In this document: one piece after another, positions 926 to 11,057 of the stretch
Layout of the letters: each line of letters starts with the position of its first letter
Position numbering within the stretch: the first letter of the stretch is position 1
Source: Chitinophagaceae bacterium
Lineage (GTDB): Bacteria > Bacteroidota > Bacteroidia > Chitinophagales > Chitinophagaceae
Assembly (NCBI GenBank): GCA_947447825.1
Contig: CANFLL010000044.1
Span: forward strand, 1-34,262
DNA: 34,262 nt
Direction of reading: 5' to 3'
Notes under the pieces: generated by a model
What the model saw: the letters and a program-made list of their open reading frames with translations, nothing else
Told to the model about the DNA's origin: nothing
Databases searched by the model: none
Translations under genes and position numbers: made by a program

Positions 926-2107
926 TTACACCTTTACAGTTGCGGCTAACCATGCCATTACACCAATACCTATTTCAATAGAACTTTCATCAATATTAAA
1001 CTTTGGGGTATGAACATTATGGATGATTCCCTGCGCTTCATTTCGTACGCCAAGGCGATAAAAACAACCAGGCACTATTTGGGTATAATAACCAAAATCT
1101 TCTGCGCCCATGCGTATCTCCGTCTCTTCCACCTTTTCTTTTCCCATATAAAGATCAGCCTGTTGCCAAGCAGCATCCGTAAACTCAGGATCATTATCAA
1201 CAGTGGGGTAGCCAACATCTATTCTGAAATCTATTTCGGCACCCATTGCCTCTACCAATCCTACCGCTTGTTTGGTCATCAGTTCGTGTGCTTTAAAACG
1301 CCAAGCCTCATCCATTGCCCTAAAAGTGCCCATCATTTTAACCTCACTAGGAATCACATTGGTGGTGTGACCGCCTTCAATGCTGCAAATACTTAATACA
1401 GAAGGAGAAAGTGGGTTACAGTTTCTGCTTATAATTTGTTGCAGGCTCACAATCATCTGCGAAGCGATCAAAATAGTATCTGCCGTTAGGTGTGGTGCAG
1501 CTGCATGACCACCCTTACTACGGATGGTTATGTAAATTTCGTCGGCACTTGCCATTACCCTACCTTTTCTAAAACTAAGTTTACCAGCCTCTAAACTTGG
1601 GTTCACGTGTAGAGCAATAATGCCTTGTGGGCGAGGATTATCCAGTACGCCATCCTTTATCATGTAGCTTGCACCACCAGGATTGCGTTCCTCACCAGGT
1701 TGAAAAATGAGTTTAATAGTGCCCTCAAAATCCTCTTTTATTTCATTCAATATCTTAGCAGCACCCAACAAAACGGTTGTATGCACATCATGACCACATG
1801 CGTGCATCACTCCCTTATTCTTCGATTTATAGGGCACATCATTCTCTTCATCTATTGGTAGTGCATCCATATCTGCACGCAAAGCAATGATGCGACTAGT
1901 TGGATTCTTTCCTTTTATCAATCCTACCACACCAGTTGTGGCCTTTGTCTCGAAAGGAATACCAAGGTCAGCTAGTTTATCTTGTACAAATTGGCTTGTA
2001 TTATACTCTTGGTAACTTAATTCGGGATTGGCATGTATATGCCTTCTAATAGCAATACTTTCGGGGGCATAATCTGCTGCCAATTGTTTTATCTTTTTTA
2101 ATAACAT
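926..2107 (-). CDS. M20 family metallo-amidohydrolase (N-acyl amino acid / hippurate hydrolase type)
   Basis: This 393-residue protein is a cytosolic metal-dependent amidohydrolase of peptidase family M20D, which removes acyl groups from N-acyl amino acids or related conjugates. The di-metal site motifs are clear: RADMDALP near residues 77-84, MHACGHDVH at 101-109 with the ligands Cys104 and His106, QPGEE at 136-140 with the catalytic/ligand Glu pair, and HNVH near the C-terminus. The lid-type dimerisation domain falls between roughly residues 185 and 300. Length is typical of the family. Substrate cannot be assigned. The start codon lies directly next to one arm of a 40-bp perfect inverted heptad repeat that fills the gap to the upstream SPOR gene, so its 5' leader may be highly structured. 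Confidence 0.93.
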   Translation of the reverse strand: MLLKKIKQLAADYAPESIAIRRHIHANPELSYQEYNTSQFVQDKLADLGIPFETKATTGVVGLIKGKNPTSRIIALRADMDALPIDEENDVPYKSKNKGVMHACGHDVHTTVLLGAAKILNEIKEDFEGTIKLIFQPGEERNPGGASYMIKDGVLDNPRPQGIIALHVNPSLEAGKLSFRKGRVMASADEIYITIRSKGGHAAAPHLTADTILIASQMIVSLQQIISRNCNPLSPSVLSICSIEGGHTTNVIPSEVKMMGTFRAMDEAWRFKAHELMTKQAVGLVEAMGAEIDFRIDVGYPTVDNDPEFTDAAWQQADLYMGKEKVEETEIRMGAEDFGYYTQIVPGCFYRLGVRNEAQGIIHNVHTPKFNIDESSIEIGIGVMAWLAATVKV

Positions 2108-2113
2108 CTTTTT

Positions 2114-2262
2114 TTAGTTGTTAGTGGTTAGTTATTAGTGGTTAGTGGTTAGTTATTAGTGGTTAGTTATTAGAGATTAACTTGTTATTTGTTTGAGTAA
2201 AACACTTTTCCTTAACACTAATAACTAACCACTAACCACTAATAACTAACCACTACTCACTG
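2114..2262. repeat. Inverted AGT-heptad arrays, 40-bp perfect inverted repeat
   Basis: Nine heptads TTAGTNN run from 2114 to 2176 (NN mostly GG or TA), and seven complementary heptads NNNACTA run from 2214 to 2262. Positions 2122-2161 are the exact reverse complement of 2216-2255, giving a 40-bp perfect stem around a 54-nt loop. The order of GG and TA variants is identical in the two arms. The right arm overlaps the stop codon of the SPOR gene (2257-2259) and the left arm begins 7 bp from the start of the amidohydrolase gene, so the structure fills the whole gap between two co-directional genes. Confidence 0.97.
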
Positions 2263-2673
2263 GTCATTAGTCATCGTGTATTCTACAGCATCTTCAACCA
2301 CATAAACACCTTGCGGATAGATTTTACTAAGTTGTTGGCGAAACTTCTCGGCATCTTCCCTATTGATGAAGTTGCCTATCCGTACTTTGAAATAAGGAGA
2401 ATTGTAAGTGAGATAAGCCTTTTGATCAGTAAACCTAGAGAGCACATCAGATTTTATCTTGTTTGCTTGATCTCTATTGGTGGTACTTAAAACCTGAATT
2501 CTATATCCTTTATACAATCCAGAGCTAGTCATCATACTGCTTCGCTTATTAATCTCTGCTTGCTTATCAGACAATATGTCCAATCGAGGATCTTTTCTAA
2601 CAATGATAGTATCATTTGCTAATAGATGACTACTAGCCATAAACAGCACAACAAGGAGAACTATATATTTCAT
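2257..2673 (-). CDS. SPOR domain protein, secreted
   Basis: This 138-residue protein has an N-terminal signal peptide (residues 1-19, hydrophobic core after MKY). A SPOR domain covers about residues 55-130, recognisable from GYRIQVLS, the YFKVRIGNF strand and the REDAEKFRQQL helix. SPOR domains bind glycan strands of peptidoglycan lacking stem peptides, usually at division sites, so a periplasmic wall-associated role is inferred. No other domain is present. The stop codon is embedded in the first heptad of the inverted array downstream. A -7 element (2716-2723) is found upstream. The MlaE permease gene lies 131 bp upstream on the same strand, but co-transcription is not certain. Confidence 0.9.
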   Translation of the reverse strand: MKYIVLLVVLFMASSHLLANDTIIVRKDPRLDILSDKQAEINKRSSMMTSSGLYKGYRIQVLSTTNRDQANKIKSDVLSRFTDQKAYLTYNSPYFKVRIGNFINREDAEKFRQQLSKIYPQGVYVVEDAVEYTMTNDQ

Positions 2674-3542: not shown

Positions 3543-3555
3543 TAGTTAAATTATT

Positions 3556-3750
3556 AGTCGACAGTGAAAAGTCGAAAGTCGAAAGTTGAAAGTCGAATAT
3601 GAAAAGTGATGTGGGCTATTGTTGTAAAAAAACAAATATATAGACAACCTTCCAATTTTTAAATATCTCAATTTTCGACTTTTAACTTTCAACTCTTAAC
3701 ACCTTAATTTCCACTTTCGACTTTTAACTCTCGACTTTTAACTTTAAACT
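3556..3750. repeat. Inverted AGT-heptad arrays between maeB and mlaE
   Basis: Eight heptads in AGT-N4 register run from 3556 to 3611 (mostly AGTCGAA and AGTTGAA). The opposite orientation (TTCGACT, TTTAACT, TTCAACT and variants) occupies 3674-3694 and 3709-3750. The right arm ends on the first base of the maeB stop codon, and the left arm lies just upstream of the mlaE start. The pairing between arms is imperfect. The 3612-3673 loop contains a candidate mlaE -7 element. Confidence 0.92.
3633..3640 (-). promoter_or_regulatory. Candidate -7 element for mlaE
   Basis: The minus strand reads TATATTTG, a match to TAnnTTTG, about 90 bp upstream of the mlaE start. It sits in the loop between the two heptad arms, so one arm would be in the mlaE leader RNA. 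No convincing -33 box is seen. Confidence 0.35.
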
Positions 3751-10588: not shown

Positions 10589-10763
10589 AGAACATAAAAA
10601 CTTTTGTTACCACACAGGAACTTTACCACTAAGTTCAAGAGGAAAAAACAAGGGAAACAATGGTTTAACTTTTGCCTATATCATTTATAAACAAGCGATT
10701 ACATACAAACTTTGTATTCAAAGAAGCAAAAAAATATTTTTCTTGCTGAAGGTAGAGTATGTC

Positions 10764-11057
10764 TTCGTGAAAGAACAATCTTCCTTCGTAAAAGAACAAT
10801 CTTCCTTTGTAAAAGAACAATCTTCCTTTGTAAAAGAAAAATCTTCCTTTGTAAAAGAACAATCTTCCTTCGTAAAAGAACAATCTTCCTTCGTAAAAGA
10901 ACAATCTTCCTTTGTAAAAGAACAATCTTCCTTCGTAAAAGAACCATCCTCCTTCGTAAAAGAACAATCTTCCTTCGTAAAAGAATAACCTTCCTTCGTA
11001 AAAGAACAATCTTCTTTTGGGAAAGAATAACATTCCTTCATGAAAGAAATTGCTGCT
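10764..11057. repeat. 21-bp tandem array, 14 units
   Basis: Fourteen consecutive units of exactly 21 bp start at 10764 and every 21 bp up to 11037. The consensus begins TTCGTAAAAGAACAATC and ends TTCC, with scattered substitutions (TTTG for TTCG; AATAACC for AACAATC in later units; TTTGGGAAAG and TTCATGAAAG at the right end). Because 21 is a multiple of three and the unit has no stop in several frames, it creates spurious open frames on both strands. It lies in the gap downstream of the MutS2-like gene (stop at 11089). Confidence 0.97.

Follow-up and report, generated by a model that had tools for sequence, protein, structure and literature searches.

Why should the short gap between two ordinary bacterial genes be filled by a long, perfect inverted repeat built of 7-nt units, and what keeps its two arms alike: copying from one to the other, selection for a duplex, or chance? 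The locus lies in a Chitinophagaceae bacterium (genome G000), in a stretch of 34,262 nucleotides that we call the window. The flanking genes code for a SPOR-domain protein and an M20 peptidase, with MlaE and malic enzyme genes next to them, and the M20 proteins of two public Chitinophagaceae metagenome-assembled genomes are 95% and 93% identical to that of the window. A preliminary description of this DNA had reported arms that are exact reverse complements made of 7-bp AGT units, and both statements hold: the arms match over 40 nt around a 54-nt loop (Table 1) and consist of heptads with a higher-order period of 21 nt. They extend to 2122-2166 and 2211-2255 if two mismatches are allowed, and the element leaves 15 of the 149 nt of the gap unpaired. 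Its account of the borders had to be corrected. One arm had been said to overlap the SPOR stop codon, which occupies 2257-2259, so that the 40-nt arm, ending at 2255, stops 1 nt short of it. The other had been placed 7 bp from the next start codon; the exact arm lies 14 nt, and the heptad array that begins at 2114 lies 6 nt, from the M20 start.

Table 1. Positions of the features discussed (window coordinates, except for gap 9, where contig C2 is given)
Feature	Position	Strand	Remarks
M20 peptidase gene	926..2107	-	downstream of the element; start codon 2105-2107
Heptad array containing arm A, full extent	2114-2167
Arm A of inverted repeat	2122..2161	+	GT-type heptads TTAGTGG/TTAGTTA
Loop	2162..2215	.	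54 nt, between arms A and B
Arm B	2216..2255	-	exact reverse complement of arm A
SPOR-domain gene	2257..2673	-	transcriptionally upstream of the element; stop codon 2257-2259
Second heptad inverted repeat	3548..3744	.	AGTCGAA type (AA-AGT kind); arms 37 nt, 6 mismatches
TATATTTG	3633..3640	-	in loop of second element
Gap 9	between genes C2:62243-63073 and C2:63183-64208

The element had also been described as far longer than an intrinsic terminator, and it lacks the hallmarks of one. Its stem is AT-rich (13 of 40 arm positions are G or C), its loop is long, and directly behind the stem, read in the direction of the genes, come CTAACAACTAAAAAAAG and the start codon, with no U-tract; a terminator scan, which sees loops of 3-8 nt only, found none at the element. 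The sense RNA is predicted to fold at -72 kcal/mol (z=-11.6), and none of 200 shuffled sequences folded equally well. Rfam gave no match at gathering scores, and the loop, compared by eye, showed no conservation in the congeners G011, G003 and G007. Without mismatch, the 40-mer occurs in the genome as its two arms only; near-copies with 2-3 mismatches stand in 12 other places, six of them in a single cluster on contig C36. The window holds other repeats as well: an error-free GTGGTGA array of 13.4 copies close to the contig end (40-133), a GT-rich stretch around it with scattered GCATAGCTGG-like repeats (1-690), and a 21-nt repeat of 13.6 copies (10763-11048; 7 residues each if translated) that overlaps ORFs on both strands.

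Inverted repeats built of heptads occur throughout the genome, and the element is one of them. In G000 the pattern (AGTNNNN)4AGT has 613 matches (324 and 289 on the two strands), against 59 (30 and 29) for a reversed control. The search of related genomes that the preliminary description had proposed found AGT heptads in all 13 genus genomes searched, G000 included, and in 103 of 147 family genomes, 42 of which carry at least 20 matches. AGT as a universal core was rejected: the reversed control is commoner than the AGT pattern in the congeners G002 and G006, and other genera have units of other kinds, AACGCCT or GGTGAAT for example. The preference for seven appears in counts made without assuming an AGT core. 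In 745 kb of G000, window included, 64 arrays have lag 7, compared with 4-9 at lags 5, 8, 10, 11 and 13; lags 6, 9 and 12, which are multiples of the codon, have 25-28, and lag 14, a multiple of seven, has 49; 80 family loci (472 kb) gave 66 arrays at lag 7, 36 at lag 14 and 0-6 at other lags. A scan of 711 kb of G000 outside the window gave 161 inverted repeats with arms of at least 16 nt; seven was the best period, at an identity of at least 0.6, in 16 of them, and every other period in at most nine. The units come in dialects that differ between loci; grouped by eye, those of G000 include TT-AGT-NN, AA-AGT-NN, CA-GGT-TN, TA-CGT-NN, AC-CGT-TN and AATTGAT. The same genome also contains a distinct family of inverted repeats: at L071, L075 and L077 (C1:136236, C1:212057 and C2:33836) arms resembling CTCACCTGAGTCAGTCCACGACTCACCTGAGTC enclose a loop of 91 nt in every case.

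Placement relative to genes was determined in 1.13 Mb from five genomes, of which 34 kb is the window, picked for the feature, and in which ORFs were called by length alone. This sample holds 42 heptad inverted repeats, 26 of them from G000 and one each from G015 and G062: 29 lie in tandem gaps, five in convergent gaps, one in a divergent gap, six overlap ORFs and one could not be assigned. Divergent gaps are depleted (1 of 35, with 19% expected by count, P=0.006, and 26% by length, P=0.0004), and convergent gaps carry elements at the expected frequency. In the 29 tandem elements the median distance is 4 nt from the stop codon to the beginning of the 5' arm, and 26 nt from the end of the 3' arm to the next start. 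Among all 42 elements, 29 have a 5' arm of GT type and six one of AC type, and seven are undecided.

Heptad arrays also stand in frame inside genes, several of them inverted, which argues against termination as their general function. From their sequences we take these genes to be an rfaD-type epimerase, tilS, mfd, an FAD dehydrogenase and a ribonucleotide reductase, the array in the last being weak. The epimerase has 135 nt between the compared flanks in G000, 123 nt in G003 and G011, and an array-free 60 nt in G007, G008 and G012. In tilS, short ACCGTTA-type arrays are present in G000, G003, G007 and G012, and inverted arrays of other units in G008 and G010; in mfd the array stretch ranges from 75 to 177 nt among the genomes compared. 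A repeated peptide like VNRLPLTE accompanies only units of the ACCGTTN kind.

Heptad units and arrays turn over fast between congeners. We read the orthologous gaps of 18 G000 elements in up to nine congeners (none was recovered for gap 11), and among these gaps, chosen because G000 holds an element there, 63 of the 105 that are at least 30 nt long contain an inverted repeat that is significant against shuffled sequence (p<=0.01). At the SPOR-M20 gap itself this holds for four of nine genomes (G000, G011, G003 and G007). Gap 9 illustrates the turnover: its units are of AGTCGAA type in G000, TAAGTNN in G007, TTATGAG in G008 and G011, GGTGTAA in G010 and AAATATG in G012, each forming an inverted pair in its own genome; G005 has none, and a T-run follows the stem in some orthologs. 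At gap 4 of G008 (L238), CACAAAG-type repeats with an inverted partner stand in place of heptads, perhaps another repeat class. In the wider family, SPOR and M20 genes adjoin in 75 of the best 80 of 492 loci, and in 61 of these 75 the gap is 2-43 nt, mostly too short for an array; the window element therefore occupies what is usually a tight operon gap. Six of the 14 longer gaps in the same set hold heptad arrays, three in congeners and three in other genomes with further units, two of the latter being nearly identical. After the SPOR gene of G006 (L051 and L063) there is a long run of TTTCACN-type heptads in one orientation, with no inverted partner in the approximately 420 nt read.

The second heptad element of the window sits between the malic enzyme and MlaE genes. 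In G000, G011 and G003 its loop contains TATATTTG, which we take to resemble the -7 promoter element of Bacteroidota.

The arms of these elements are coupled. Arrays picked by periodicity alone in 103 gaps of at least 45 nt were found on both sides in 67, on one side in 19 and on neither in 17. The mean arm score was 14.7 for the own partner, 10.6 for the same gap across species, 8.0 for another gap of the same genome and 7.5 for another gap of another species. When partners were shuffled among species within each gap, the observed sum was never reached in 5000 trials (p=0.0002). Covariation between the arms, which the preliminary description had wished to see tested, is thus present: the arms do not vary independently, and those at orthologous gaps usually switch dialect jointly. 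With the 56 significant inverted repeats only, the means were 17.8 for the own arm and 11.9 and 8.9 for the comparisons, and in 31 of 53 cases the own arm scored higher than any partner from another species; relatives with the same dialect explain many of the other cases. The own-arm score fell below 9 in 14 of the 67 gaps; three of these (gap 0 in G007, gap 6 in G010 and gap 7 in G011) look as if they hold two dialects, and the others, judged by eye, look like weak or misplaced arrays. At gap 7 of G011 (L192) CAGTNAN units face TAAGTNN units, possibly a half-way state of a dialect switch.

Within a single dialect the coupling is less distinct. Six TTAGT elements gave an unclear own-arm advantage (p=0.08, or 0.22 without the window). 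An enlarged set from one genome, some of whose elements came from stretches picked because arrays were listed there, gave p=0.016 for TTAGT (n=10), 0.042 for CAGGTT (n=4), 0.034 for AAAGT (n=5) and 0.67 for CCGTT (n=3). These tests covered all but 11 of its 33 elements, those 11 belonging to small groups or to none. The own arm was the best partner in just three of the ten elements of TTAGT, the dialect of the window, and the 5' arm of the window element scores 40 against its own partner and 39 against the 3' arm of another locus. A second perfect case (L082) pairs 33 bp with four different units in matching order. Arms of other loci that share the dialect match almost as well, which weakens the argument that exact order proves copying. 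Arm coupling is real, and much of the parallel unit order is dialect grammar. The earlier suggestion that arms varying in parallel reflect copying or gene conversion survives in part: the coupling stands, while most of the likeness is shared dialect.

The reading that we favour, with a probability of about one half, is that the heptads are born by slippage, that the arms are rewritten by template switching during replication, and that the products are tolerated in gaps and loops. Heptad arrays would grow through replication slippage, and the polymerase would switch template between nearby arms in a fold-back or quasipalindrome-type event, copying a new unit of one arm into the other and keeping the stem paired. 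The products would persist where they do least harm, which is in protein loops and in the gaps that follow stop codons; between operon genes, we propose, they are tolerated because the stem formed in the RNA is looped out, so that stop and start remain effectively close together. It is known that hairpins arise, and that the arms of inverted repeats are homogenised, by template switching (PMC8794818, PMC8604942), and the published model predicts both, also in coding DNA; genome-wide, renewed heptad arrays are not described in the abstracts of these papers. Homogenisation over several bases appears here as a pattern, the joint switch of dialect, and the comparisons made caught no single switching event. 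Loop inversion, expected from some switches, had no clear case among seven comparable loop pairs, five being direct and two, which share one palindromic loop, ambiguous. Further points weigh against our preferred reading: the dialects are few and turn up again at one locus after another, a recurrence for which local copying by itself does not account; in some three of the 67 gaps the arms seem to be in different dialects; the own arm is seldom the best partner in the dialect of the window element; and in the genus a gap is as long with a detected inverted repeat as without one (medians 103 and 102.5). Loss of SbcCD is not a sufficient cause, as there is no consistent relation of SbcD presence to AGT heptads. 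SbcD was above cut-off in 19 of 147 family genomes, and zero AGT-heptad matches were found in 11 of these 19 against 33 of the 128 others (p=0.007); there was no difference at thresholds of 5, 20 and 50 matches, and three SbcD-positive genomes carry 160-248.

The main rival is that the elements are selected mRNA hairpins at 3' ends or between cistrons, acting as exonuclease barriers, in partial termination or in gating translation of the next gene; selection on pairing would then make the arms covary, with heptads as the mutational raw material. Arm covariation, the start of elements just past stop codons, their rarity in divergent gaps, the very stable fold of the window element and the T-run in some gap 9 orthologs all agree with it. 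A strand-blind process should leave equal numbers of G-U and A-C mismatches on the coding strand, and the counts (45 and 32 in 62 elements, p=0.17; 17 and 16 in a second count on an overlapping set, both of limited power) show no significant excess of G-U. Together with the in-frame elements inside translated genes, and the 69 of 75 family loci (from the best 80 of 492) that have no array at the SPOR-M20 gap, this speaks against the selected duplex that the preliminary description had offered as its alternative, and we consider a selected hairpin the less likely reading, although the elements may still play a role in mRNA.

Insertion of whole units by a transposase, as a mobile palindromic family of MITE or REPIN kind, would account for identical dialects at many loci and for array-free sites in orthologs, and Y1_Tnp proteins occur in 107 of 147 family genomes. 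Among the loci compared, however, no ends, length or loop in common were seen, and three heavily loaded genomes (G054, G098 and G133, with 91, 167 and 345 matches), whose assemblies are incomplete, gave no Y1_Tnp match at E<=0.001. No simple link to Y1_Tnp as a driver is apparent; we regard this origin as improbable. That the arms are unlinked products of chance slippage is hardly credible. The strong excess at lag 7 and the gaps with an array on one side only (19 of 103) fit it, but own-arm pairing exceeds both the cross-species and the cross-locus nulls, and inverted repeats recur in the orthologous gaps chosen for a G000 element (63 of 105).

A bolder form of the slippage and template-switching reading, which we hold only tentatively, is that heptad inverted repeats are self-renewing palindromic DNA without a transposase, made of slippage units, maintained by arm-to-arm switching and spreading into gaps and protein loops. 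Such DNA would supply operon-internal hairpins and new in-frame peptide segments, and the heptamers of Xanthomonas, cyanobacteria and Beggiatoaceae would be the same process with other units. Compensatory changes within a stem are usually taken to prove that an RNA structure is under selection. Since the arms covary at many loci, some of them inside translated genes, a mutational process may leave the same trace and could mislead the search for RNAs by covariation in genomes of this kind. A natural experiment is on offer here as well: the class bears on why many bacteria favour seven as the long repeat unit, and on the way in which housekeeping proteins acquire new peptide segments.

The closest published relatives are the GGGAATC heptamers of Xanthomonas, which form convergent inverted pairs near stop codons, with few between divergent genes (Rehm et al. 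2015, PMC4692102). That account reports 70 and 75 such pairs in two genomes, in one relative orientation and mostly intergenic, at mostly the same gene pairs in two species and with variable sequence. Pairs of one orientation are found here too (5' arm of GT type in 29 of 42), as is the placement (median 4 nt from the stop in 29 tandem elements; 1 of 35 divergent). The Xanthomonas repeats, (GGGANTN)n, are one G-rich unit family read as G-quadruplexes, whereas the units here (AGTGGTT, AGTCGAA and others) are mostly AT-rich, so that G-quadruplexes cannot be the common cause; the available text of that account describes neither dialects nor a test of arm co-switching. TAACTGA heptamers form intergenic arrays in Beggiatoaceae, cyanobacteria and some Bacteroidetes. 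Most of these arrays lie immediately before start codons, and they are essentially direct repeats: among 170 sets in the main genome, one inverted repeat is reported (MacGregor 2015, PMC4679880). Their reverse complement, TCAGTTA, fits the AGTNNNN of our elements, but the window element is an inverted pair of mixed units. Rickettsia palindromic elements are families of approximately 150 bp that stand in frame in housekeeping genes and code for a conserved peptide (PMC10969869). In-frame insertion in unrelated genes is common to both (here rfaD, tilS, mfd and others), whereas the Rickettsia elements, as far as that source describes them, have a conserved sequence and peptide and no heptads, and the units here differ by locus and species. 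The literature searched, which covered few subscription papers, contained no description of inverted heptad repeats in Bacteroidota whose arms switch together. The heptad inverted repeats described here are real, widespread and fast-changing, and they constitute a new variant of the heptameric repeats with inverted pairs.
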